From a virus: a stretch of DNA of 21,542 bases. The stretch is taken from the IMG/VR virus record IMGVR_UViG_3300009155_000312, positions 1 through 21,542 of that record; one strand, given 5' to 3'. Position numbers and translations under genes: made by a program. The notes under the pieces were generated by a model that searched no databases, had not been told where the DNA came from, and saw only the letters and a list, made by a program, of their open reading frames with translations. Of the stretch, positions 4,179 through 18,441 are shown in pieces. The first letter of the stretch is position 1, and each line of letters opens with the position of its first letter.

Positions 4179-4420
4179 CAAAATCTCCTTGGAAGTCGTC
4201 TGGTTGGTTCATTGCTCGTTTTGCTTTCAGCTTCTTGCTGGTCTGAAAGCATTGAAGAAAATATATCCATTGAACCTGGAAATGATGTTAATAAGGCTCC
4301 AACGGGTTCAAGACTTTCTGCAAGCTCCTTTAAAGCCTCTTCACGCTCTTCTTCAGGAACTTGTTCCAGCATCTTTTTGTAAATACTTGAATTCAAGAGT
4401 AAATTAATCATATTAGTCAT
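4178..4420 (-). CDS. Small acidic helical protein after the tape measure
   Basis: An 80-residue protein. The frame stays open upstream to 4495 inside the tape measure gene, but the likely start is the ATG at 4420, which overlaps the tape measure stop as TAATG and so depends on translational coupling; an AGG lies about seven bases upstream. The sequence is mostly predicted helix, with MLEQVPEEEREEALKELAES forming an acidic amphipathic stretch at about residues 17-36, and a basic, arginine-rich end. No family is recognised. Small proteins between tape measure and baseplate genes are often assembly factors or hub-associated parts, but nothing in this sequence shows which. The 1-base stop/start junctions on both sides suggest amounts linked to its neighbours. 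Confidence 0.65.
   Translation of the reverse strand: MTNMINLLLNSSIYKKMLEQVPEEEREEALKELAESLEPVGALLTSFPGSMDIFSSMLSDQQEAESKTSNEPTRRLPRRF
4185..4190 (-). promoter_or_regulatory. Ribosome binding site deciding the start at 4178
   Basis: AAGGAG lies six bases before the ATG at 4178. The in-frame TTG at 4181 would leave only three bases, so the ATG is preferred. The site lies inside the end of the upstream 80-residue gene. Confidence 0.8.
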
Positions 4421-7400
4421 TAGATAACCTGTCCACCAGCATATTTTTTGCCATTTAACCAATACTCTGTTGTCCTGTTTGAATTGCTCGTCCATTTAAA
4501 TTCACGGTTTAGATCACCGTTTTGCAAATACTCGTCAAAGTCAGGTGTTGCCTGAACAGTTCCAGCAACAACAAGTTGACCAGCAAGCTTCATTGCATCC
4601 ATTGTAACGTTCATATTAACTGTTACATTAACGGCGCCACCGTTCACGCTGACGGCGGCCTGGGCAAGATTAGATCCATTGTTAAAATCTTCGATTGCTG
4701 TGCCAATATCTATTACAGGAAGACCAGCAAGAATATCTCTAACTTCATTGGCCATTGAAACAATGCTCCAAACTTGAGCTGTGTCAAATGCTGCCGAATT
4801 TTCGGCAGCAGCAATGACTCTATTAATCATCACAATATAACTTTCTACAACGCCGCCTACGCTATCAAAATTATCTTTTAAGTTTAATAAATTCACATCT
4901 TTAAAAGTTGCTGCCATCGCTCCAAATGATTTAACAAGTGTTGTCAAAGGAGGTTCATCAAACGATACTTCTTCGCCAATACCAGTGATTGCACTAAAAA
5001 CAGGAGCACTTGCATCAAAAGTTTGTCCTGATAGCTTATTGTACAAACCCATAATGCTATCCATACCATTCAAATATGTGTCAATTACATTTAGAGCACC
5101 TTTCATTTTAATTTCAGAGACTTCCATTTGACCAATTTCTGGTAGCGTATTAGCATTGTCTAAAATACCAGGTATGGTTTTTATCATTGCAACAAGGTTA
5201 TTAGCAGCTGTCCACGCTTTTGAAGCCAAAGTTGCGTCAACACCTGACTCAGTGAATTTCAATGTTGCTGAGCTTGCTTTTTCCAAAAGATCAAAAATAG
5301 ACGCAATTTCAACAATTTTTTCTTTATTAAATTTAGTAGTGTCAATTCCTGCAATTTTATTCAATAAAGACTCGGAGCCAGATGTGCCATCACCAGTTAA
5401 TATATTCAGCGGTATCATAATAGCATCTTTTAAAAATTTTCCATATTCAACATCACCAACAGAAGTTGTTGATAATTTTGGTAAAGCTCCTACAATGCTA
5501 AGTGTATTTTTCATCATATCAATGATATTGTTCATCATTGGACCAATGATAGAAAGATTTTTAGAAGCAAGTTTAGATTTTTTTATTGTCTCTATCATAT
5601 CGGCATTTGTAAATTTATCAATTGCTGAGTGTATTAGAGTCATAAGGTCATCAAGCGAAGCATTCATTTCTACTGGATCGACTGTGTCAGCTCCAACAAC
5701 GCCAGAAGCAAATGTTGCAACACCAGCCAAAATTCCGCCACCAATGAGTTTTAGCAAAAACGTTCCAAGTGAATCTAGTACATCAGCATTTACATCTTTG
5801 AATTTATCAACATCTTGTTTTAAAAGATCAATAAACGAGATTTTGTCTTTTATTCCTGAATCTTTCCCCCAATTTCGAGGTTTATGTAATGCTGCAAAAG
5901 CAGAAACAACAGCTTCAGTAATTCGATTAATAATCATTGGCATTGAATAAATTGCAATGGTACCCATTCCAATGGCCGTTATGTTTTTGGCTCCGGTTGC
6001 TACACCAGAAAGTAGATCCCCTGCGCCGCTCATCAAATCTGAACCTAAGCTTGATAAACCGCCTCCTAATTTTGAGATATTTTCCATGCCATCATCAAGG
6101 CTTTTAGGCATTTCAAGCTTAAATCCATTTGTATATTTGTTAACAAGCATTGCCGCAGCGGCACCCCCGGCGACACCGGCGCCGGCGAGAGCGACATCTT
6201 TTCCGTTTTTACCAAGATCAATGCTTTCTTTCAAGTCTGTTAATAATTTTTCACCAATATTGCTGAAATCTAATGGATTTCCCGCCATCCAGTCGTCTGC
6301 AACTTTTTTTATAGAATCAAACAACGTCTTAAAAAAATTACCAATGGCTTTTATTTGTGGACTATTAAATGACAATTTTGAAAATGGATTATTTTTCAAA
6401 AAATTAGTTATTGATTCAACAATTGCAAGACCCATATCTGGAAGCTGCGCAATCAATTCAGTCAAAAGAGGTTCCATAGCGCTTTTCAAATCTTTTATAA
6501 ATCCAAAAATTGCGCCAAAGATAGACCCAATGACACCAGTTCCTCCTGTTGACTTTAAGCTTGCAGTTATATTTGGAATTTGTTTTATTACAAATGACAA
6601 CGATCCTTTAACAATATCAATCATAAAAGACGCTGCTTTTCTAATCATACTTGCAACGTTAATTCCACCAACGGCTCCATCAAACATCTTTCCAACTGTC
6701 TTATAAACGTTAGTGATAAGACCTTCAAAAGCTTTTGCGACATCACCATATTTCAACATGCTTGTGAATGTTTTAATATGACCAGCGATTGAAACTGCCA
6801 TATCGCCAAATTTGCTGAAGATATTTAACAGCTGCTTCCCACCTGTGATGCTACTTCCACCAAACAAAATAGTAGCAAACATTCTACCTGTTTCTTGGCC
6901 AATTGTTGCAACCCTAACCAATTGGGTGGCAAATTGACTTATAAGGCTCATGATTGAATTTGAGCCCATAAAGCCTCTTAAAAACCCTCCAATGAAAGCG
7001 TCTATGAATCCCTTAAGTTGATCAAATCCAACAATTACGTTTTTAATATTATCGGCAAGATCATTCATGATCTCTTCGGTCGACTTCTGCTTTTTCATTG
7101 CCGCGTCAGAGCCTTTTGCAATGTCATCATATGACATTGACAAACCTTTTGCCGAAAACGCAAGAGCAGCCTGCTGCTCTGTTAGACCAGATGTTTGAGC
7201 AAGAAGACTTCTTTCTTGACGGGTCATTGAATCAACAGATCTTCCCGTTGCAGCAAATGCTCTTTGAACTTCTTGAAGTCTTGCTGCTGGATCCTGAAGA
7301 TTCATCATCTTCAAAGGATCAAGAACCATTCCAAACCCTTGAGCTAATTGAGCAGCGGCATCGGCCCCTGACTCGAATTCATCAAACTTATCGACAAGAC

Positions 7401-8418
7401 CAGTTAATTCATTGATTTCAATACCTAATTTTCTTGTGAATGTTGCAGCTTTTGTCATCTCTGTGACGTAATCACCTGTCATTCTACCAAGCATTTTAAA
7501 GTTTGAAAGAGCCTTTCCAACATCAGATCCAAGAACTTTTGTTGAAACGCCCCATTGCTTTCCAATCTTATTAACAGATTCCATAATGTCTTGGCTGAAT
7601 GATTTTACTGATTTTCCTGATAGCTGGGCCAAAACACCAACTTGCTTCATTGCCTCGCTGCTAAAATTTAAACCCTTTTTCAACACATACAATTGGGCAG
7701 TTGCATCAGCAACTTGTTTTTCTCCTAAATTATCAAATGATGCACCCAGGTCTGAAATGATTCCATCCATTGCCTGTAGTTTTTCAATTCCTCCTTGCAC
7801 ACCTGGAGAAAATTTAGAACGGAAAGCGCCAGAAAATCCACTTGCTGCATTTAAAGAAGATGATAAACCTTGTGCTGTGTTTTTTATTGTTCGTGACGTA
7901 GTTTCATTAAAGCTACCGTATTTATCTCTAATCTCTTCAAGAGCTCTAGCATAATCATACCCTGCTTTTGCAAGCTCGGCGGCTTTTTCTATTAAGGTAT
8001 CATAAATTGTGTTCAAAAACCCAAATGCAGCCGCAGTAGGTCCCATAATTGCAGTTGACACTGAATTTAAATTAGTTAAAAGAAGGGTAGCGCCTTGCTT
8101 TAAAGCGTCAAAAACGACATCAACACCAGGAATAGATCCAACAAAACTTTTAATAGTATCAAGAAAAGAGCTTGCACCTTCGGAGAGCCCGCCAAATATG
8201 GAATCAAGAAAAGTCAATGATTCTGAAAATTTATCAAGCTCAGTTGATGCACCAGCAATAGATTGCGTAATTCCACTTGAAATTTGTGATTGATCACCAA
8301 GAATGTCGGGACCGCCAGAAGGTGCAGATGCAGAAGGGGATCTTTTATTAAGAGTTGCATTTAATCCGTTTAAAGCATCTACTAAAGTATTAAGCTGCTC
8401 TGAAGTGATATCACCCAT
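4420..8418 (-). CDS. Tail tape measure protein
   Basis: A 1,332-residue protein and the longest gene here, in the place expected for the tape measure: after the gp26/gp51-like chaperone frames and before the baseplate genes. Most of it is predicted helix with many short Ala/Gly/Ser/Lys-rich segments. Several hydrophobic stretches are present: near residues 120-135, about 737-758 (an Ala/Gly-rich run), about 809-831 and about 883-913. Such segments are typical of tape measures, which fill the tube, set its length and are ejected into the cell envelope before DNA. Using the usual rule of about 1.5 angstrom per residue, it predicts a tail near 200 nm, against roughly 100 nm and 590 residues for T4 and gp29. 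No lysozyme or peptidase motif was seen. The Shine-Dalgarno sequence is weak (AGGG nine bases upstream). Confidence 0.85.
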   Translation of the reverse strand: MGDITSEQLNTLVDALNGLNATLNKRSPSASAPSGGPDILGDQSQISSGITQSIAGASTELDKFSESLTFLDSIFGGLSEGASSFLDTIKSFVGSIPGVDVVFDALKQGATLLLTNLNSVSTAIMGPTAAAFGFLNTIYDTLIEKAAELAKAGYDYARALEEIRDKYGSFNETTSRTIKNTAQGLSSSLNAASGFSGAFRSKFSPGVQGGIEKLQAMDGIISDLGASFDNLGEKQVADATAQLYVLKKGLNFSSEAMKQVGVLAQLSGKSVKSFSQDIMESVNKIGKQWGVSTKVLGSDVGKALSNFKMLGRMTGDYVTEMTKAATFTRKLGIEINELTGLVDKFDEFESGADAAAQLAQGFGMVLDPLKMMNLQDPAARLQEVQRAFAATGRSVDSMTRQERSLLAQTSGLTEQQAALAFSAKGLSMSYDDIAKGSDAAMKKQKSTEEIMNDLADNIKNVIVGFDQLKGFIDAFIGGFLRGFMGSNSIMSLISQFATQLVRVATIGQETGRMFATILFGGSSITGGKQLLNIFSKFGDMAVSIAGHIKTFTSMLKYGDVAKAFEGLITNVYKTVGKMFDGAVGGINVASMIRKAASFMIDIVKGSLSFVIKQIPNITASLKSTGGTGVIGSIFGAIFGFIKDLKSAMEPLLTELIAQLPDMGLAIVESITNFLKNNPFSKLSFNSPQIKAIGNFFKTLFDSIKKVADDWMAGNPLDFSNIGEKLLTDLKESIDLGKNGKDVALAGAGVAGGAAAAMLVNKYTNGFKLEMPKSLDDGMENISKLGGGLSSLGSDLMSGAGDLLSGVATGAKNITAIGMGTIAIYSMPMIINRITEAVVSAFAALHKPRNWGKDSGIKDKISFIDLLKQDVDKFKDVNADVLDSLGTFLLKLIGGGILAGVATFASGVVGADTVDPVEMNASLDDLMTLIHSAIDKFTNADMIETIKKSKLASKNLSIIGPMMNNIIDMMKNTLSIVGALPKLSTTSVGDVEYGKFLKDAIMIPLNILTGDGTSGSESLLNKIAGIDTTKFNKEKIVEIASIFDLLEKASSATLKFTESGVDATLASKAWTAANNLVAMIKTIPGILDNANTLPEIGQMEVSEIKMKGALNVIDTYLNGMDSIMGLYNKLSGQTFDASAPVFSAITGIGEEVSFDEPPLTTLVKSFGAMAATFKDVNLLNLKDNFDSVGGVVESYIVMINRVIAAAENSAAFDTAQVWSIVSMANEVRDILAGLPVIDIGTAIEDFNNGSNLAQAAVSVNGGAVNVTVNMNVTMDAMKLAGQLVVAGTVQATPDFDEYLQNGDLNREFKWTSNSNRTTEYWLNGKKYAGGQVI
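4789..4810 (-). repeat. 10-bp palindromic hairpin inside the tape measure gene
   Basis: The arms TGCTGCCGAA and TTCGGCAGCA pair perfectly around two bases. It encodes an Ala-rich stretch, which may explain part of it. No T-run follows, so it is not a terminator by sequence. Confidence 0.4.
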
Positions 8419-8730: not shown

Positions 8731-9030
8731 TTATGTAAATCTACGAAGTCTTGCAGGAGATTCTGCTCTATTAAGACCCATTAACGCACGTGTTTGTGCA
8801 TCATTTTGGTGTGCAGCTCGGGTGGGAACATTATCTTTGTCAGAATTTTTTGTAAGCTCTCGATTTAATCTTTCAATAAACCAAACTCTGTATGTTATTG
8901 GAATATTGTAGCACTCCCAATATGAAAATCCCATGTAATACATGAGAAGGAAGGAGTGCTCAAGATAAATTTGTCGATCTTCAGGTTTCAGGCCAAAAAA
9001 ACCCGGCACCCAGCGGTACCCGCACCTCAC
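8731..9030 (-). CDS. gp51-like second frame, probably made by frameshift from the gp26-like gene
   Basis: A frame of 99 codons that overlaps the end of the gp26-like gene by 50 bases. A stop codon (TAA) lies immediately before the GTG at 9030, so that GTG is simply the first codon of the open frame. GAGG is only three bases upstream, too close for good initiation. The residues YLEHSFLLMYYMGFSYWECY and the following YRVWFIERLNRE match a short helical family that follows gp26-like genes in T4-superfamily phages and is often annotated as gp51 or baseplate hub assembly protein. A T7 run (8995-9001) in the overlap would let ribosomes pass from the gp26 frame into this one, giving a fusion of about 361 residues, as in the gpG/gpGT chaperones of other phages. 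Coding is well supported; the means of expression is inferred. Confidence 0.7.
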   Translation of the reverse strand: MRCGYRWVPGFFGLKPEDRQIYLEHSFLLMYYMGFSYWECYNIPITYRVWFIERLNRELTKNSDKDNVPTRAAHQNDAQTRALMGLNRAESPARLRRFT

Positions 9031-9817
9031 TTACCTCATTACATGAATTACAGTCATAGTCAGACTTCATGTCAATTCCAGGCTCATTCTGTTCAATATA
9101 TTTTCTAAGAGCCATAGAATCGCGAGCAGGCATGTTTCTAATAAAAGAGTTAATTGCTCCACGATCGGTTCGTCCATCAATTGAGATAATTGCATACTGA
9201 AGACGAGTTGTGACAACGTTATCAGCAATTGCTCCCTGCTTCTTAGTACGCTCTTGAACGGTAAGAATCTCTTCCTCGTCGCGGCCTGTAATAAACTTAA
9301 ACACAACAGACTTCTTGGTCAATGGAAGCTTAAACTCAAATGCGTTTTGTCCCTTTGAAACAGGCTCAATTTCAAGTCTCTTGATTGGCATGTTTGAAAG
9401 ATCAAATGTCTGCTTTGATCTATTTCCGCACTTTGGACAATCGGACTCAACAACGTAATCCTTTCCATAGCCAGTGATGCGCAATGCAACCATTACAGCG
9501 TTTCTATCACCAGACAACATATCTGGAACGTTAATCTTCTTATCAATTAAACAACTCTTGATTAACTCAGTGATGACTGTTCCTTTCTTAATAAGGGCTC
9601 GTGAAGTCAAAATATCTTCCTCACGTGCAGTCATTGATCTGATGTCAACTGTTTCTGAACAATGCAATGGTGAATCAACTGAATAGGTTACTCCATTAGA
9701 AGGAAGTGGAACGGATTCAACAGGAATCTCAAATCCGAAATCATCCTTCATAACATCCTTTACCTGAATTCCAGCAGGGACTGCACCACCAAAAAGATCA
9801 CTACGATTTTCTCCCAC
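8981..9817 (-). CDS. gp26-family baseplate hub / tail assembly chaperone with zinc-ribbon cysteines
   Basis: A 278-residue protein of the T4 baseplate protein (gp26) family. The hallmark is IRSMTAREEDILTSRALIKK at residues 59-78, followed by VITELIKSCL. A pair of CxxC motifs, C127-C130 and C256-C259, looks like a split zinc ribbon. The start is GTG at 9817, supported by AGGAG (9824-9828) six bases upstream. The protein ends GAGFFWPET just after a T7 run in which the overlapping gp51-like frame becomes reachable. In T4, gp26 and gp51 are needed for hub assembly; the position here, before the tape measure, is also that of tail assembly chaperones. The gene has its own 56-base leader, containing a TACTTATA element, after the enzyme cassette. 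Family assignment is confident; the split between structural part and chaperone is not resolved. Confidence 0.82.
   Translation of the reverse strand: MGENRSDLFGGAVPAGIQVKDVMKDDFGFEIPVESVPLPSNGVTYSVDSPLHCSETVDIRSMTAREEDILTSRALIKKGTVITELIKSCLIDKKINVPDMLSGDRNAVMVALRITGYGKDYVVESDCPKCGNRSKQTFDLSNMPIKRLEIEPVSKGQNAFEFKLPLTKKSVVFKFITGRDEEEILTVQERTKKQGAIADNVVTTRLQYAIISIDGRTDRGAINSFIRNMPARDSMALRKYIEQNEPGIDMKSDYDCNSCNEVSEVRVPLGAGFFWPET
8995..9001 (-). promoter_or_regulatory. Candidate ribosomal frameshift site (T7 run)
   Basis: On the coding strand the gp26-like frame reads GGG TTT TTT TGG. Slippage of the phenylalanine tRNA from TTT (second codon) forward by one base re-pairs perfectly with TTT and places GGC in the A site, entering the gp51-like frame; a -2 shift would give the same frame. 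Three bases upstream is a possible 6-bp hairpin with a GCTG loop (9005-9020). The zero-frame stop follows three codons after the TGG. Confidence 0.5.
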
Positions 9818-9873: not shown

Positions 9874-10908
9874 TTAGGTTGAAACCCACAATCTCATGTT
9901 ATTCACTCTATTTTTTATTGTTTTGTAAAATTCAAAAACCAACCCATTATCACCATCAGCAATATTTTGCATCATGTTTAGGAGTTGTGTTGCTTCATTT
10001 TTATTAAAAAATGTTCTAAATCCCTTTTCAAATCCTTGTGATGCAGCCTTTAGATATCTGTGAATTTCTAAAAGCATTTTGTCTGACTTAAGCTTATCAT
10101 GATTTCCCACTAAACCATTAATTCTTTCAATTATTTGTTCGCTAGTGTAGTAGTTGCTTTTTTCTGAGAATATTGAATATATTGGAGCTTGAATCCTTTG
10201 AATATCAGCATATGTTATATTTGGAATCTTAAAGTCTTTTGATGCGCCGGTTGCAAAAACGCCTTCTGATGATCCTCCAAAAGTACTTTCACCAAAAATC
10301 TCAAGAAAGTATCTTGAAACAAGCATTTCAGTTTCTACTTTCATTGCTTTTGTAATTTTTGGACTAGAAGCAAGATTGTCACGAGCGTGTTGAATTTTTT
10401 GACGAAGTTCTGGAGGGAGTGGTTTTGGTCTTTTTATAATGTCGTCTTTGCAAAGAAACTTTACATATTTTTGATTTGTATTGAGAAGCATGCACAAATT
10501 CTTTGACATTGCACCTGTAAATTCAATAGCAATTGGAATATCACCAATTACATAATCAATGTAATCAGGTCTATTCTCTGGCTTAATAACTTCAAATTTG
10601 TATGTTGCATTTGTCCTTTTCATTAAATTTGAGTATTTAAGTGTTTTTGCAACACCTCCAATATCAAATTTAGGCGAATGAGGCGCGCCTTTTTTAATAC
10701 CGTCTTTTTGATTTGCTGTTATCCAACCATTCTCAATTTTAACATCTAAAAACTGACCTGCCAACTTTTCAGTAAAAGTTAATAGTGGTTCTCTTCCAAG
10801 AATGTCGTCAAGAACATTTAGAATATCTGTATATTCTAAGTCTTGAATTCTGGGTGTACCTTCAGAGATTATCACTCGAAGATATTTTTGAAAAGTTGAT
10901 ACATTCAT
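9874..10908 (-). CDS. Nucleic-acid-ligase-like phage protein (probable nucleotidyltransferase fold)
   Basis: A 344-residue protein. Residues 46-61 read TEKLAGQFLDVKIENG, which resembles ligase/mRNA-capping motif I (KxDG) with lysine 48 in place but alanine where aspartate is usual. Residues 106-130 form a strand-rich section (KFEVI...IPIAIEFTG) like the middle motifs, and EGVF at 215-218 followed by KDFKIPN (224-230) resembles motifs IV and V. The spacing fits the ligase fold and recalls an unassigned phage family (DUF6267-like, from memory) with EKxDG and EGVVF motifs that often sits beside a nucleotidyltransferase gene. The C-terminal third is helical. Its ATG overlaps the upstream stop as ATGA, with AGGA eight bases before, so the two are co-translated. 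Whether it joins nucleic acids, transfers a nucleotide to something else or has lost activity is unknown. Confidence 0.55.
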   Translation of the reverse strand: MNVSTFQKYLRVIISEGTPRIQDLEYTDILNVLDDILGREPLLTFTEKLAGQFLDVKIENGWITANQKDGIKKGAPHSPKFDIGGVAKTLKYSNLMKRTNATYKFEVIKPENRPDYIDYVIGDIPIAIEFTGAMSKNLCMLLNTNQKYVKFLCKDDIIKRPKPLPPELRQKIQHARDNLASSPKITKAMKVETEMLVSRYFLEIFGESTFGGSSEGVFATGASKDFKIPNITYADIQRIQAPIYSIFSEKSNYYTSEQIIERINGLVGNHDKLKSDKMLLEIHRYLKAASQGFEKGFRTFFNKNEATQLLNMMQNIADGDNGLVFEFYKTIKNRVNNMRLWVST

Positions 10909-11666
10909 ATCATCAATCCTATAAGATTACGAATCATATTTTCAACAGTGGGTTTCCACACTGTGCGCGGACAACTATTTGCAGCTGATGTTTTTAGTGT
11001 CTCATAAATTTCTATTGCTATATCCATTGGAACAGGAGGGAGAAGCTTAATAAACTTTTCACGCTCATCATTACAAAGATAATTTCTCATCTTTGTTCCG
11101 CTGATGTCAATTGTTGCCGATCTTGAAAGACCAACCTTGCTAATTGTTGATTGAAGAAGTCCAGGATATTTCTTTTCAAGATTTTTATCAGGATAATTTG
11201 TGTTGATGTCTTCTTCATCAGAATAAATGTTAATTACCAAATCTCTTATGTCAACTTCAATTTCAGCATAAGGAATTATAACTGTTGTTTGATTAGCTTC
11301 TTTTGCTTGTTGAACTGCATCAAGAATTGTATAAACACATAAAACGGGTGATGTAGGTATCCCATCATCTGGTGTCATAATCTTTGTATTTTTTGGAAGC
11401 TTAAGATTTGGTATCAAAAGATTTTTCCAAATGTATCGCATATCACTTCCATAAACAGGAGTATCACCTGCAATTGGAACTTCACCTTTTGAAGTTTTCT
11501 TGACACCTCTGCTAGAAAATGAAACAAAAACAAGAACTAGATCATTTTCAGGACCTTCAGTTCTTTTGATTTCATTGCTGACAACTCCCATTGCAGCAAA
11601 CTGAACAAGCAGATGGTGACCAAGGTGATATGGCTTGGCCGACATTGGAACTAGTCCGATATTCAT
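10905..11666 (-). CDS. Cytidylyltransferase/NMNAT-like nucleotidyltransferase
   Basis: A 253-residue protein of the HxGH nucleotidyltransferase superfamily. The N-terminus MNIGLVPMSAKPYHLGHHLL carries HLGH at residues 14-17 after a short first strand, and ISGTKMR at 188-194 is the second signature (ISxTxxR), which binds the triphosphate. The superfamily includes NMN adenylyltransferase, pantetheine-phosphate adenylyltransferase and glycerol-phosphate cytidylyltransferase; the substrate cannot be decided here. The end of the domain, EKFIKLLPPV, then helices, resembles other phage-encoded members. A strong terminator lies just upstream, so the gene probably needs its own promoter or read-through; a CATACTTA element lies 20 bases before the ATG. 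It overlaps the ligase-like gene by four bases, suggesting a joint job. An NAD-related or nucleotide-transfer role is plausible but unproven. Confidence 0.72.
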   Translation of the reverse strand: MNIGLVPMSAKPYHLGHHLLVQFAAMGVVSNEIKRTEGPENDLVLVFVSFSSRGVKKTSKGEVPIAGDTPVYGSDMRYIWKNLLIPNLKLPKNTKIMTPDDGIPTSPVLCVYTILDAVQQAKEANQTTVIIPYAEIEVDIRDLVINIYSDEEDINTNYPDKNLEKKYPGLLQSTISKVGLSRSATIDISGTKMRNYLCNDEREKFIKLLPPVPMDIAIEIYETLKTSAANSCPRTVWKPTVENMIRNLIGLMI

Positions 11667-11754: not shown

Positions 11755-12243
11755 TCAGTACTGTAGAACGCAGTTGTCGAAGCGCATATCCAACTGGATT
11801 TCTAGAAGATCGTCACCGTCATATCCAAGATCACCAAAGTTTGCTGACGTAATGAAAGCACCCTTGATGTCCCAAAGTTCGATAACAGTTCCAACTGGAT
11901 CAATTAGCTTTAGCTGACAATCACGCTTGTAAAAGTCTGCATAGCCTGCTCGACCGCTCACGCTTTCAAAGTGGGTACGAATCCACTCCATTACCTGCTG
12001 GGCACCAGATGGTGCAATAGCATCATAAAGTGTGACCGAAAGCGTGTCAAAAGTTGTCTTGCCAGCGATGTAACGACGTGAGTTGATCCAAGGGATTTCC
12101 TTTTCGTCAGTCTTTACGCTTGGGCGCTTTGTTGATTTGATAAGATAAGCGTCAATACCCTCAATAGAAAAAACCCATCGATTTTTCCTCTTAGGTTCAA
12201 ACTTATTGGGAAGCATATCAGCGACTGAAAGTGTTTCTGCCAT
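11755..12243 (-). CDS. Tail tube protein (gp19-like)
   Basis: A 162-residue protein, almost the length of T4 gp19 (163). It shows the tail tube pattern: PNKFEPKRKNRWVFSIEGID near residues 12-31, then a strand-rich body with IPWINSRRYIAGKTTFDTLSV (about 50-70), VMEWIRTHFES (about 83-93) and LKLIDPVGTVIELWDIKGAF, a strand typical of the T4 gp19-like family. Hexameric rings of this protein stack to form the inner tube through which DNA passes. It follows two sheath genes, the usual sheath-tube order, and has a good AAGGAG (12250-12255) six bases before the ATG, fitting the high output needed. A strong terminator follows directly. Confidence 0.92.
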   Translation of the reverse strand: MAETLSVADMLPNKFEPKRKNRWVFSIEGIDAYLIKSTKRPSVKTDEKEIPWINSRRYIAGKTTFDTLSVTLYDAIAPSGAQQVMEWIRTHFESVSGRAGYADFYKRDCQLKLIDPVGTVIELWDIKGAFITSANFGDLGYDGDDLLEIQLDMRFDNCVLQY

Positions 12244-12282: not shown

Positions 12283-15200
12283 TTATTCAAGAGATCCAGC
12301 TGCAACAAAGTCAATTGATATGAATTCAGCAGCCTTGGTAGGCTGAAGATAGATTTTTCCACGAATTGTGTTATTTTCAATATCGGCCTGAGTTGTTGTA
12401 GTTGTATCAATCTGCACGCGATATCTCTCGACACCTCTTTGCGACTGAACCTGCTTCATTATAGGTGTTACGAGTGCATTGAATCTAGCAATAGTAGATT
12501 CACGATTTGGCTCAAACAAAAGTGTATTGGCAACAGCCTTCACTCTACGACGAACCTCAATCAAAAGTCTGCGAACGTTAACGCGATCAAGTGATGAACC
12601 TTCATGCAATAGTGTTCTTTGTCCTGAAATAACAATGCTTGGTGCTGCGCCTGTTGGAACACTTACCAAAGGATTGATACCAGCGTCATAGACGGTATCA
12701 ACATTTTCATTGATAAACAAGGTGTCAAGAGTTTCACCTGGGATTGTTGCTCTGTTATAGCCTGCTGGGGCTGTCCAAGCAAATCCCACTGTGTCATTCA
12801 ATGAATATGCACCAAGAACCATTGTTGATGTTGGCAATCTAACTGTCTGGGCAATTCCAGTTCCAGGATCTACTGAAACATTCACATTCGGGAAGTAAGC
12901 TGCTCCAAACGAGTTGTTCAATCCACGGTTGCGGAATCGACTAGTTGTGTAGTTTAGATTTACGTTAGGATATGAATCTGATGAGATTGATGCAGTGATG
13001 TAATTGTTATTATCATCCTTCAACTCAATGTCCATAACATACAAAGCGTCAAATCTTGTTTGCATTGAGCTAAGTGTGTAATCTGTAACAGCTGGATGGC
13101 GCATGTCTGGGATTGCAAGAAGGCTGATGTCTGAGTATGTCTTTTCACTCATAATATCAACTGCTTTACGATATGCCGCAACTGTTGGTCCAGAAAGCTG
13201 TCCTTGATTTGAGTTATCAAGCTCACGTCTAACAGCTGCATCTCTCATATAGAACTTGTCCGCATCAAAAATATTCAATCCGTCAAATCCACCCTGCATG
13301 AATGCAGTAAACTTCAAATAAGAGGTAGTTCCTGTTTCTTTGAAATCTACATTGGGATCAACAAATCTACCAGTTAGTGATGCATTGAGAACGCCACCTC
13401 TTTGATAAACAGCCTCATCCCAACGTGTTGAATCAATCTTGTCAGAACTTGTCATTATCTGAATATTTTCAAGAGTGAAAAGATTGTTATTGAATCTGTC
13501 AGCGTCAAGAACTGAGCCATTAACATTAGCAGTTCCAGTATTATCACCAACCCAAGGGTTGAGATAAGAAGTATGAAACTTTGGAAAGTACTTTGTGTAT
13601 GCAAGAAGACTGTTAGCATCTAGCAACTGTGTTCCATCGTTTGGCTGTGTCAATGTGTTGTATGTTGTGAACTGTGTTCCCCAATACAACTTGCTTTCAC
13701 CATAAACACCATCTGCTCCGGCGGTACCACCAACATTGATGCTACGACGATAAGGGATTGGAAGCTCCTTAGCGTTAGTCAATGGAACATTTAGGTGTGA
13801 ACTGTTACCAACTGATCCAGTTGCAAGCAATCCATTTCCTGATGTTACAAGGTGATAATAACCACGATGTCCAACAGGCATTGTGTTAGATGGAATCATT
13901 TTGTTGATAACATCATCACTAATTTCTACGCGAACAATTCTAGATGACTTTCCGTAAAGACCTTCTTCAACAACCTTTTGTGAATCAACTGATCTGTCGA
14001 AGTCGTAATAAACGTTAAGGTCGCCAATCTTCTTTCCTATAAAGCTTTCACTGTCAGGATCTAGATTACAATTAGCATAAGACTCTATAACGCCAGCAAG
14101 GTCACCATCTTCAGCATCCCAATTTCTAATCTCAACAGTAAATTTTGCGTATGCTCCAGCAACTGTTGGATACTTAATGTCCTTGATTGACACCTTGTAG
14201 AGTGAGTTTGAGTATTCACCATCTGAACGTGCATGAATCTTAAATAGATCGTAGCGTGTTCCACCAAAATTTTGTGAAACAAAATATGGTGTCATTGGAT
14301 GTGTGTATCTATCCTGAAAACCTTCATAGTTAGGTGATGTGGTGGTTCCATCATTTCTTGACTGTGATCCAGAAAGACAGAATACAATCTCTTCAATGGC
14401 TGTTCCTACACTGACTCTTCTAATGTTTGCTTCGTTAGATACACCTGAACCGGTTGGAACAGCAAGAACAGTAGGAATGTCATAGTGGTTGTAAAGAACG
14501 TAACCATGCTCTTCCAAAAGAAGTGGATCACGGTTAAACTTTGTACCAAAATAATCATTTGATGTTGGATCAAAAGATGATGTCAAAATGCTTGGATAAG
14601 AAACTGAATCATTGTGTCCATTTAGGAAAAGAACAAACTTCTGATTACCGCCTTGAAGATCCAAAGAACCTGTGAACCATCCTTTAGCAGGTGACTTTGT
14701 AGTTGCAGTGGAAGAGTACGTATCTGACGTTACGCCTGGTGCTGAGCTAGATAGAGTAATCTGAACACCAGATGCTGCAAAGAGAACACCTCTAACAATT
14801 GGCTGGGCAGCAGTTGATGACTGAAGACCAGCACCTGAAAATGCCCATGATCCAGCAGACTCAGACATGTAGCATCCAAGGAAGTATGTTCTTCCTTCAA
14901 TACCTGTAGCTGTTGCATATGGGTTATTTGCAAGTTGACCTGTCGATGTTTGCACTTTTTGTGAGCCTACAACGAAACCTGCATTTGTTACACTACCAGC
15001 GTTTGGAGACGACAGACTGCGTGTCTTACAATCACCTGCACCCAAAACTCTTACATAAGTTCCAGCTGAAGCATTGTTCAACCACTCATGCAACGCAAAT
15101 GGTGCATGATAGTGAGCATCTGGTTGTCCAAATTCTTTTGCAAACTGTGTGTTATCAGCAAATGTTAGAGGAACAAATGCTGTTCCCTGAGTAGCAGTGC

Positions 15201-15291
15201 CAACAACGCCAGCCGAACGGCCGGATGGCTGTACTTCAGTCGATCCGCCGGTAAGATCTATTTCTCTTAGGACTATGCCTGGGGCTGCCAT
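12283..15291 (-). CDS. Tail sheath protein, second copy (gp18-like paralogue B)
   Basis: A 1,002-residue sheath protein, longer than T4 gp18 (659). The N-terminus APGIVLREIDLTGG is the arm that links neighbouring subunits, leading to TYVRVLGAG near residue 86. The C-terminal domain (from about residue 901) contains LDRVNVRRLLIEVRRRVKAV, LLFEPN and, close to the end, AAEFISIDFVAAG, the conserved sheath core. FDGLNIFDA is another shared block. It matches the upstream sheath gene in these blocks and in the middle (IGKKIGD, SLYKVSI, VGHRG), so the two are tandem paralogues that diverged a good deal. AAGGAG (15298-15303) lies six bases before the ATG. Sheath subunits contract to drive the tube through the host envelope. 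Whether this copy makes the main sheath or a minor part cannot be told. Confidence 0.9.
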   Translation of the reverse strand: MAAPGIVLREIDLTGGSTEVQPSGRSAGVVGTATQGTAFVPLTFADNTQFAKEFGQPDAHYHAPFALHEWLNNASAGTYVRVLGAGDCKTRSLSSPNAGSVTNAGFVVGSQKVQTSTGQLANNPYATATGIEGRTYFLGCYMSESAGSWAFSGAGLQSSTAAQPIVRGVLFAASGVQITLSSSAPGVTSDTYSSTATTKSPAKGWFTGSLDLQGGNQKFVLFLNGHNDSVSYPSILTSSFDPTSNDYFGTKFNRDPLLLEEHGYVLYNHYDIPTVLAVPTGSGVSNEANIRRVSVGTAIEEIVFCLSGSQSRNDGTTTSPNYEGFQDRYTHPMTPYFVSQNFGGTRYDLFKIHARSDGEYSNSLYKVSIKDIKYPTVAGAYAKFTVEIRNWDAEDGDLAGVIESYANCNLDPDSESFIGKKIGDLNVYYDFDRSVDSQKVVEEGLYGKSSRIVRVEISDDVINKMIPSNTMPVGHRGYYHLVTSGNGLLATGSVGNSSHLNVPLTNAKELPIPYRRSINVGGTAGADGVYGESKLYWGTQFTTYNTLTQPNDGTQLLDANSLLAYTKYFPKFHTSYLNPWVGDNTGTANVNGSVLDADRFNNNLFTLENIQIMTSSDKIDSTRWDEAVYQRGGVLNASLTGRFVDPNVDFKETGTTSYLKFTAFMQGGFDGLNIFDADKFYMRDAAVRRELDNSNQGQLSGPTVAAYRKAVDIMSEKTYSDISLLAIPDMRHPAVTDYTLSSMQTRFDALYVMDIELKDDNNNYITASISSDSYPNVNLNYTTSRFRNRGLNNSFGAAYFPNVNVSVDPGTGIAQTVRLPTSTMVLGAYSLNDTVGFAWTAPAGYNRATIPGETLDTLFINENVDTVYDAGINPLVSVPTGAAPSIVISGQRTLLHEGSSLDRVNVRRLLIEVRRRVKAVANTLLFEPNRESTIARFNALVTPIMKQVQSQRGVERYRVQIDTTTTTQADIENNTIRGKIYLQPTKAAEFISIDFVAAGSLE

Positions 15292-15329
15292 TAAAAACTC
15301 CTTAATATTCTCATTTAGCTATAAGTATC
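15292..15329 (-). promoter_or_regulatory. Leader of second sheath gene, resembles that of the first
   Basis: The coding strand carries TGATACTTATAGCT, then ATATTA and AAGGAG. The order TGATACTTA, GCT, ATATTA, AGGAG is the same as in the first sheath leader, with small gaps. It may be a phage late promoter duplicated with the gene, or simply a retained leader. TGATACTTA here overlaps the stop of the first sheath gene. Confidence 0.35.
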
Positions 15330-18300
15330 ACACGAACTCGACACCAGCAGGCGTGATGATGAAATCAACAGCAATAAATTCAACTGATCTTGTTGGAATA
15401 ACAACAATGCGACCATTCAATCTACTTGCTGCAACATCTTCAGCTGTGTTGTTTGTATCGTCCATCACAATCTTGTAGTTCTCAATACCAGCCTGAGCCT
15501 TGATGAGAGCGAGGATTGGTGTTGCTTGGCTAACAAATGTTTTTCTTGTTGTTGCATCATTTGGCTCGAAGAGAAGACCTCTAGCGACGTCCTGGATGAC
15601 CCTCTTAATTTCGAGGAACAATCTTCTAACATTTACTCTGTCAAATGCTGATTTAGTAACCTGAAGAGTCTTCTGACCAAAGATTACGAAACCTGAGCTT
15701 GGGAACGTTGCGACAGGATTGATTCTGTTTTCATAGAGGTAATCACGATCGGATGTGCTCAATCTAACGTCAACGTTTGAAACAAAGTCAAGGGCTGCGC
15801 GGTTGAAACCTGCTGGTGCATACCATGGGTAAGAAACCTTGTCGCTGTATGAAAGAGCTCCGAGAGCAGCTACTGATGCTGGAACCTTCACACGTCTATT
15901 ATATGTTGTGTCATTGACATAAACATCTGGGAAGTATGTAGCAGAGTAATTGCTGTTTGGTGCGCGACTAGTGAGAGCGTCAGCTGTCTTTGTTACATTT
16001 GGCTTCAGTGTAGAATCTTCAAAGATTCTAGTATTAGAATCTGAATATGAAGGAATGTCAAGCAAATACATTTCAAGAGCGTAAGTTGGAAGTCTTCTCA
16101 TAATGTAATCGGTAATCAAAGGATCTTTGATTCCGGGAGTTGCAATGATATTGGTGTTAACAGTAAGCTTATCGGTCATAAGCTTAGATGCAACTTTGTA
16201 GCTATTAACAGCATTGTTGCTCAAACCATTACCGTTTGGATCATATCCAAGACCAGAGCGAGCAATATTTGCTGCTCCACCGGCTGCAAGTCCACCTGGC
16301 TCAGTTGAAGTAGCGCGATCTCCCATTCTTGCCGCGGCTGCATCCATAATGTTTAGTCCATCAAATCCACCATAGAACATGGTTGAGAACTTTGAATAAT
16401 CACTAAACTTATTGAAAAGTGCAGCTGAACCTGAAAGTACCGAGGCAATTGTTAGACGATTTCCAATTGTATCTGAGATGGTGTATGTTGATGCGTCAGG
16501 GGTTCCATTGCGAACGTATGCTGCTTCCTTCATGTGGGCATCAGATGTTCCTGTGACATCATTGATGCTTGTGTTTGAAAACGCAACCCTTGCCAATGTA
16601 AATTTGTTGGCGTTGAATGCATCGGCATCAGAGCCAGTAATGAGTGCATCAAGCTTGCTAATTCCTTGGAAGCGTGAGTATGCTGAAACAATATTGTTGA
16701 ATTCAGTTCCATCATTTGAATTCATGACTGAATTTTCAATTGTTCCATCAATTGTTCCAGATGGAACAAGTCGCTCAAACTTAACGCCCCAGTGATATCT
16801 GGAATCTGGAATCTCAAGAATACCTGGCTCACCAATGTATGAAAGACCATTCACTTGACCCTTTGTGACCTTGAATCTAAAAGGAAGTGGTGGAACAATA
16901 GATCCTGTAAGTCCAGTTTCAACTGAACTGCTACATGCAAGTCTTGGAAAAGCTCCTGCTGTTCCAAATGTGCGCCCGCCAAGAGTGAGAGAGCTTGCAG
17001 TGTCGGTAAGTGTCTGTGTTGTTCTAACAACAGGAATTCCTCTGAATCCAAATGGTAGTGCATTCTTTGGAACTGCGCCATTGTCAAGAACAGATGATAC
17101 AATTACTCTGACATACTTGCTTGCATTTGGAAACTTGCCGCTGATCATCAATCTCTGCTCAGCTTCATCAGTTGCATCAAAGTTAAACGTAACTTTTCTG
17201 TCACCAATCTTTTTTGCAATGTAGTTGCTGCTAAGTGGATTTAAATCACAACCGCCGTAATACTCAAGTACTTTTGTTGATGTGTCTGTGTCGTAAAGAT
17301 CTCTAATAGCAACATCAAATGTTCCATAAGGATTCTTTGGATCAGTTGATGCTCTGATGTTAGAGATTGACACTTTGTAAAGACCGTTTCCAGATGAACC
17401 ATCGGTTATTGTCTCAAAGTGGAAAAGATCATGTTCCATATTTCCAAATGGCTGAGAGATAAATGATGGAGTACGTGAAGTTGTGTAACGAGTATCATAC
17501 TTTCCAAAATTCTGGAGCCACGAGCTGGTGCTTCCTGATGTGATAGCAACACATCTATCACCTGCTGTGTCAATTCCTGCAACTTCATTATCAACAGGAA
17601 AATCTAGATAGAGAAGATGCTGTTCTTCTTGGAACTTCTTTGGGTCAGTATTAAGAACTTTTGCAAAGTAATCTGTGTTATTTGGATCAAATGAAGCAGT
17701 CAGCATCTTAATGCCAGGATTGCCATCAAACGATGCAAATGATGATCCAACTGATGATGAAATTGCAAACTTAAACTTTAGATAAGTTGTTGATGAGGAG
17801 TCAAGATCGACTGATGCGACGTCATCAATTGTGGCGCCTGTTCCTGTCCACTGTGAATTGGCACCGGTCATATCAAGAACCATTCCGCGGGCGCCTGTAG
17901 GAAACATAATAACGCCGCGAACAATGTTCAGTGTGTCGCTGCTTGCTGGGTTAAAGCTTGGGTTGTCGCTGAAAACTGGAAAACCCTTCCACTCAGATGG
18001 TGTAGCTGTGCTTGCTGGTAGTGCGTGACGAGCTGTAAGAAATTGAACAGCACCTGACTTTCTTAAATCAAGAGCTGGTAGTCCTTGTGTAGAACCTGTT
18101 ACTCGGAATCCTGCATTTTTGACTGTTCCGTTTGCAGCAGTGCTTGATACATCTGCTGCCGATGAATTTGCACCTGCGCCAAGAACTCTTATGAAAGTGA
18201 GTGCTCCCTTATTCTTGAGAAATTCATTAGCGGCGTATGAAGCAGGACGCTCAGGATCGAGACCTCCAAACCTTGCCGTAAAATCAGAAAAAGAACCTAC

Positions 18301-18441
18301 AGTTGTTGGAACGAATGCTGGGCCGGCTGCGGCTGCTCCAATCAATCCACCTGGGACGCCTGTTGGCTGCGCTCCAGGCGCTGTGAGCTCAATCTCCTGC
18401 TCAAAAAAACCAGGAGAGCGAAAAGTCTGTTCAGACATCAT
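15328..18441 (-). CDS. Tail sheath protein, first copy (gp18-like paralogue A)
   Basis: A sheath protein of 1,036-1,037 residues. Two ATG codons are adjacent (18441 and 18438); AGGAG at 18444-18448 is two bases from the first and five from the second, so the second is probably used. RSPGFFEQEIELTAPG at the N-terminus is the subunit-linking arm, with LTFIRVLGAG near residue 88. The C-terminal core begins near 933 with FDRVNVRRLFLEIKRV, LLFEPN and SVEFIAVDFIITP, as in the next gene. FDGLNIMDAAA is present in the middle. T4 gp18 has 659 residues, so both copies carry about 350 extra residues, probably surface domains. It follows the gp15-like gene after a 54-base gap holding the leader motif, and precedes the second sheath copy. 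Confidence 0.92.
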   Translation of the reverse strand: MMSEQTFRSPGFFEQEIELTAPGAQPTGVPGGLIGAAAAGPAFVPTTVGSFSDFTARFGGLDPERPASYAANEFLKNKGALTFIRVLGAGANSSAADVSSTAANGTVKNAGFRVTGSTQGLPALDLRKSGAVQFLTARHALPASTATPSEWKGFPVFSDNPSFNPASSDTLNIVRGVIMFPTGARGMVLDMTGANSQWTGTGATIDDVASVDLDSSSTTYLKFKFAISSSVGSSFASFDGNPGIKMLTASFDPNNTDYFAKVLNTDPKKFQEEQHLLYLDFPVDNEVAGIDTAGDRCVAITSGSTSSWLQNFGKYDTRYTTSRTPSFISQPFGNMEHDLFHFETITDGSSGNGLYKVSISNIRASTDPKNPYGTFDVAIRDLYDTDTSTKVLEYYGGCDLNPLSSNYIAKKIGDRKVTFNFDATDEAEQRLMISGKFPNASKYVRVIVSSVLDNGAVPKNALPFGFRGIPVVRTTQTLTDTASSLTLGGRTFGTAGAFPRLACSSSVETGLTGSIVPPLPFRFKVTKGQVNGLSYIGEPGILEIPDSRYHWGVKFERLVPSGTIDGTIENSVMNSNDGTEFNNIVSAYSRFQGISKLDALITGSDADAFNANKFTLARVAFSNTSINDVTGTSDAHMKEAAYVRNGTPDASTYTISDTIGNRLTIASVLSGSAALFNKFSDYSKFSTMFYGGFDGLNIMDAAAARMGDRATSTEPGGLAAGGAANIARSGLGYDPNGNGLSNNAVNSYKVASKLMTDKLTVNTNIIATPGIKDPLITDYIMRRLPTYALEMYLLDIPSYSDSNTRIFEDSTLKPNVTKTADALTSRAPNSNYSATYFPDVYVNDTTYNRRVKVPASVAALGALSYSDKVSYPWYAPAGFNRAALDFVSNVDVRLSTSDRDYLYENRINPVATFPSSGFVIFGQKTLQVTKSAFDRVNVRRLFLEIKRVIQDVARGLLFEPNDATTRKTFVSQATPILALIKAQAGIENYKIVMDDTNNTAEDVAASRLNGRIVVIPTRSVEFIAVDFIITPAGVEFV

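Follow-up and report, generated by a model that had tools for sequence, protein, structure and literature searches.

The window, that is the whole stretch of 21,542 nucleotides analyzed here, carries on its minus strand a contractile-tail block, which was read from the list of open reading frames (ORFs) and from profile matches (Table 1). The order along the block is tail tube gene, two extra genes, gp26-like gene, tail, 87-aa ORF and probable tape measure gene, and the succession of tube, chaperone and tape measure is also present in relatives, where a tape measure protein is annotated at the equivalent place; the probable tape measure protein of the window itself found no family match in profile searches. 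The gp26-like protein matches the family PF12322 (T4_baseplate) with an E value of 1.2e-17 and 64.8 bits, above the curated cutoff of 24.5, and phrog_150 with an E value of 2.6e-19. The block also holds a sheath stabilizer weakly like T4 gp15. An Rfam search returned no match, and neither did a direct search of phage records with the second ORF.

Table 1. Features of the tail block discussed in the text (window coordinates)
Feature	Position	Strand	Description
Probable tape measure protein	4420..8418	-	1332 aa, downstream; assigned from size and position only
Second ORF	8731-9030	-	overlaps the gp26-like ORF by 50 bases (8981-9030)
+1-frame "T" domain	8731..8994	-	87 aa, GLKPEDRQ...RRFT, TAA at 8731-8733; proposed access by frameshift
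gp26-like 0-frame product	8981..9817	-	278 aa, GTG start; C-terminal end ...VPLGAGFFWPET, then stop
Proposed shift site GGG TTT TTT TGG CC	8991..9004	-	T7 run at 8995-9001; 0-frame A-site codon TGG
6-bp hairpin	9005..9020	-	present in the window, not conserved
Anti-SD-like TGAGGTG	9023..9029	-	counterpart in the window of the conserved GGAGGT(G); lies 22-28 nt before the first Phe codon
Tail tube protein	11755..12243	-	upstream, same block; phrog_4542 tail tube, E 2.6e-28

Two other parts of the block deserve a mention. There are two adjacent tail sheath genes (12283-15291 and 15328-18441), each encoding about 1000 aa and both containing PF17482. Furthermore, the region 9874-11666, between the tail tube and the chaperone, holds two genes that are absent from this place in the annotated relatives examined: one encodes a 344-aa protein with no match, and the other a 253-aa protein whose PYHLGHH motif recalls nucleotidyltransferases (weak matches only).

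Within the overlap the gp26 frame reads GGG TTT TTT TGG CCT, and a tRNA on the P-site TTT could re-pair one base forward onto another TTT, after which the next codon is GGC. Read in this way, the window encodes a 361-residue fusion in which VPLGAGFF is followed by GLKPEDRQ, with the predicted junction peptide VPLGAGFFGLKPEDR for a +1 shift versus VPLGAGFFFGLKPEDR, which has one Phe more, for a -2 shift. The overlap, its coordinates, the run of seven T and the 361-residue fusion had all been described in the original prediction, and each was found to be exact when the window was read again.

The conservation of this arrangement was followed in IMG/VR, where a search with the gp26-like protein gave at least 600 matches, of which the best 80 loci were examined. 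The window and these 80 nearest viral contigs form a set of 81 sequences that, as nearest relatives, are mutually dependent, and the counts were redone on 58-60 representatives less than 85% identical. In all 81 sequences (the window and the best 80 loci from the at least 600 matches) the +1 frame stays open past the gp26 stop, for about 190-260 nt where the contig is complete, while the remaining frame closes sooner or lacks conservation. The core YTT TGG CCT is likewise invariant (81/81), the site occurring as TTTTTTTGGCCT in 59 sequences, as TTTCTTTGGCCT in 18 and as TTCTTTTGGCCT in 4, and YTT can re-pair on TTT in the +1 direction in every one of them. All 46 representatives with Phe at the second codon encode it by TTT, the other 12 of 58 having CTT; with TTC making up 38% of Phe codons there, codon usage gives P 2e-10 for this uniformity, uncorrected for ancestry. 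CCT is found in 60 of 60 representatives, partly by force, as these bases also specify Leu when read in +1.

Outside these 81 sequences, eight of nine relatives from phage records also continue in the +1 frame at or near the same Phe codon, namely Microcystis Mel-JY01, Flavobacterium immuto, Bacillus SP-15, Listeria LIS04, Streptomyces BRock, LuckySocke, Streptococcus GXN1 and the huge phage LR756508. A different case is the huge phage LR756511 (L004), which lies inside the +1 clade and has T TTT TTC with the tail domain in the -1 frame; it also has an ATG overlapping the gp26 stop, and both a -1 shift and an own start are possible.

One alternative is that the second frame encodes a separate protein, made by an internal start or by reinitiation and with no frameshift at all. 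The original prediction had argued that this frame has no well-placed ribosome binding site, which is somewhat overstated for the window, where the GTG at 9030 stands directly after a TAA and has GAGG 3 nt upstream, and a GGAGGT lies upstream in many relatives. Furthermore, in two loci (L203 and L207, at about 2190-2510 of the locus) the tail domain stands in an ORF by itself, which has an ATG and an N-terminal extension and does not lie in the +1 frame; in these two the tail appears to be translated from an independent start, and the fusion is not universal. Annotators also treat gp51 of the cyanophage P-SSM2 as separate, recording two genes with gp51 beginning at an ATG 2 nt past the gp26 stop. 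Against all this, the +1 frame of 31 of 58 representatives is free of ATG, GTG and TTG ahead of the site. The first start codon past the site is usually codon 15-18, most commonly codon 17, which lies within the conserved domain, and its use would usually remove helix 1. Finally, in an alignment of 57 tail sequences conservation sets in with the residue that immediately follows the slip (GLTPxDKE...), and with a separate start the site and its codon bias would have no purpose. Separate synthesis of the tail is for these reasons considered improbable, and the +1 frameshift joining the gp26-like to the gp51-like frame, as first predicted, agrees with the run and the overlap kept in relatives and with the general lack of a usable start.

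A shift of two bases backward, with one extra residue, would lead to the same final frame; the seven T of the window leave room to slide back, and a -2 frameshift is known in phage Mu (PMC5009743). The original prediction had placed it on an equal footing with the +1 shift, a parity that is lost once the relatives are considered, as TTTCTTTGG (18/81) and TTCTTTTGG (4/81) do not let the P-site and the A-site tRNA both pair again after a step of two bases backward, and the -2 reading is regarded as very unlikely. The seven consecutive T could also have caused the RNA polymerase to slip and make the long form at the transcript level. This too is a highly doubtful explanation, given that in about one-fourth of the sequences the run is interrupted and only 3 or 4 T long and that BRock, LuckySocke and GXN1 have only TTT C. 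Homopolymers are also prone to sequencing and assembly errors, and yet the chance of such an error here is negligible: isolate genomes and many independent metagenomes share the arrangement, variants that are not homopolymers occur and the second frame is conserved, and the relatives refute it.

The bases just before the Phe-Phe pair differ between this family and a second one, described below, in which the tail continues in the -1 frame. The preceding codon ends in T in none of the 60 representatives of the +1 family (21.7 expected, P 1.5e-12, uncorrected for ancestry) and in 49 of 49 members of the -1 family (30.2 expected, P 6.5e-12, likewise uncorrected). Since a T at this place would create the -1 heptamer T TTT TTT, the +1 family avoids what the -1 family requires; a canonical X XXY YYZ heptamer in frame with the tail is absent from the +1 family and present in the cyanophage branch. 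In both families an excess of synonymous constraint is concentrated in the last approximately 10 codons.

The two families also differ in their surroundings. In the +1 family an upstream element resembling a Shine-Dalgarno (SD) sequence, GGAGGT(G), is kept as GAGG in 57 and as GGAGG in 43 of the 60 representatives, with a strong codon bias at codons -10 to -8 that goes beyond coding needs, and none of the start codons within usable reach of it is conserved. To our knowledge, its spacing of about 25 nt before the slip codon fits no stimulator described so far. The -1 family has GGAGG about 10 nt upstream of the site, a distance typical of known -1 sites, and a stem-loop that begins some 5 nt past it; 86.5% of its cells are paired versus 29-52% in slid versions, and 30 cells are compensatory. 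The stem was picked out in folds of single sequences, and a count of each of its pairs supported it; automatic RNAalifold had found little in this family. As for the 6-bp hairpin that the original prediction had noted in the window, it does exist, but among relatives only 58.5% of cells are paired and the covariation is no higher than in shuffles; it was rejected as a stimulatory element.

The domain encoded in the +1 frame is small. Structure prediction, in which the 0-frame and +1-frame halves were folded apart, gave for the tail three predicted helices with a pLDDT of 72, and a fold search with this T domain found weak matches only; a sequence search against solved structures had no match for either half. 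DUF6760 was matched by 39 of the 57 members of the tail family (best E 1.1e-7), below the curated cutoffs, and the window's own copy gave no DUF6760 match. The description of the second frame as gp51-like was borne out by profile comparison in two steps, from the tails of the window family to those of cyanophage gp51 (E 2.4e-7) and from these to the C-terminus of T4 gp51 (E 2.1e-5); a direct comparison with the single T4 gp51 tail found no match, and the link runs only through the cyanophage tails.

In T4 both gp26 and gp51 match PF12322, and gp51 has an additional C-terminal tail of about 48 residues that matches phrog_634. The phages P-SSM2, S-PM2, HTVC008M, Aeh1, KVP40 and PhiW-14 have instead a single PF12322 gene each, which ends in T TTT TTC (T TTT TTT in HTVC008M); the stop follows directly or after one more codon, and the gp51 tail (phrog_634) continues in the -1 frame. 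The same arrangement occurs in all 80 of the 80 viral contigs found with these six phages. On the basis of these sequences, cyanophages and other T4 relatives appear to slip by -1 at this same Phe-Phe end, and the comparison suggests that T4 has split the short and the long forms into the paralogous genes 26 and 51. According to Sullivan et al., the first approximately 200 residues are lacking from cyanophage gp51 (PMC3037559), and a frameshift would explain this gap. In Aeh1 (L101/L235), the gp51 tail, reported as missing, is present without annotation in the -1 frame behind GAT TTT TTC.

A tree of 64 gp26 domains has long branches, and its deep placements are unsure. The -1 sequences of the T4 relatives cluster together, and the T4 pair falls within this cluster (98/88); the +1 sequences stand on the opposite side and have among them LR756511, with its -1 arrangement, and the two phages with separate genes. 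Fused proteins from injection systems are at the base. These last proteins combine PF12322 and DUF6760 in a single ORF and were found in bacterial gene clusters resembling contractile injection systems (L228, L230 and L239), which also contain a sheath, a tube and a Pvc16-like gene. One such fused ORF, in G202, matches PF12322 with E 2.3e-9 and DUF6760 with E 1.4e-6, and similar ORFs occur in G269, G035 and G501. The existence of natural fusions of the two domains supports the view that both frames of the window belong to one protein. When the phylum to which the Halobacteriovorax bin belongs was searched for DUF6760, the phage contig already known was the only match.

DUF6760 was also met next to a chaperone of another family. 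In a Mu-like prophage (L241) the Phage_TAC_7 chaperone gene ends in GGT GGG GGC TAG and is followed, in another frame, by an ORF with matches to DUF6760 (E 1.3e-4) and, weakly, to P2 GpE (E 0.0054), both below the curated cutoffs; the gene after this ORF looks like a tape measure gene. DUF6760 may be a general T domain, although this bridge to the canonical T domains is weak when taken by itself.

Taken together, the site, the frame, their conservation and the homologies can be read directly in the sequences, and on this basis the gene is very probably a G/GT-type tail assembly chaperone expressed in two forms, the long one by a +1 slip. Most ribosomes would read the 0 frame and stop after FFWPET, releasing the 278-aa G form, while a minority would stall at the Trp codon TGG with Phe-tRNA on the preceding TTT, slip one base forward from TTT to TTT, and continue in the +1 frame to produce the 361-aa GT form with its small helical tail. 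The slip itself and the chaperone role are inferred, and the efficiency of the slip, the ratio of the two forms and the binding of partners are taken from lambda gpG/gpGT; by this analogy the G part would cover the tape measure protein, and the tail would serve to bring in tube subunits. The AlphaFold2 model of the gp26-like protein (pLDDT 86.5) is consistent with this role, as its best match among 941 chains of solved structures is the HK97 tail assembly chaperone 2ob9 (Z 5.8; runner-up Z 2.9); the match is weak (90 of 104 residues, rmsd 8.0, Foldseek E 2), and the likeness of the predicted fold to a chaperone is suggestive.

It has also to be considered that the frameshift is real and the protein is a component of the baseplate hub rather than a chaperone for tube and tape measure. 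Databases label PF12322 and phrog_150 as baseplate hub, and some genetic work places T4 gp26 in the hub (PMC3004832); on the other hand, T4 gp51 is required and yet absent from the particle, and a review tabulates gp26 and gp51 as hub assembly chaperones (PMC3004832). The position of the gene and the predicted fold favor a tail chaperone, and a structural hub role is judged unlikely. As the T4 hub contains the tape measure protein gp29, the hub and the chaperone readings may coincide.

Extending the chaperone reading from the window to the whole family, PF12322 proteins are likely to be the missing G/GT chaperone of the T4 supergroup, with one Phe-Phe site that was kept and is used in the +1 or in the -1 direction depending on the lineage. 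T4 would have exchanged this site for a duplicated and fused gene, some contractile injection systems for a fusion within one frame, and a few phages for a separate gene. If this is true, cyanophage "gp51" would be a frameshift tail and not a truncated gene. Furthermore, many PF12322 genes are probably misannotated, as in Aeh1 with its tail present and no gp51 annotation. A single explanation of this kind makes the function of gp26 and gp51 directly testable in T4, and two frameshift directions at one homologous site offer a natural comparison of what sets the direction.

In the literature outside subscription journals, no description of frameshifting in gp26/gp51 was found. The window gene can be compared with several characterized systems. 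As in lambda gpG/gpGT, P2 E/E' and Mu gp41, the gene lies between the tail tube and the tape measure, and a short form and a longer form, frameshifted at the 3' end and bearing a small tail domain, are proposed here too. The window family is nevertheless a different one (PF12322, with conserved CxxC pairs), it has a larger G part, and its shift would be +1 at YTT TGG, versus -1 in lambda and P2 and -2 in Mu.

With T4 the likeness is one of homology, as the window gene and both gp26 and gp51 belong to PF12322 and gp51 carries a related C-terminal tail; T4, named as the exception to G-T frameshifting in the review of Atkins et al. (PMC5009743), has two genes on opposite strands and needs no frameshift, whereas the window would use one gene for both forms. 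In the cyanophages P-SSM2 and S-PM2, as in the window, the PF12322 gene is followed by the tail in another frame at the same Phe-Phe; they differ in the direction, -1 at T TTT TTC, and in having an SD-like element 10 nt upstream and a stem-loop, neither of which is found in the window family.

The +1 site of prfB, the gene of release factor 2, consists of a CTT T slip with an SD-like element about 3 nt upstream and a stop codon in the A site. A CTT T slip before a slow codon would also apply to 18 of the 81 sequences here, but the window differs from prfB in having TGG and not a stop in the A site, and the SD-like element about 25 nt and not 3 nt upstream. A parallel in direction is the tail chaperone of the archaeal myovirus HSTV-2, likened to the window gene by its description and listed by Atkins et al. 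as very likely +1 frameshifting (PMC5009743), so that a +1 shift in tail chaperones has a precedent.
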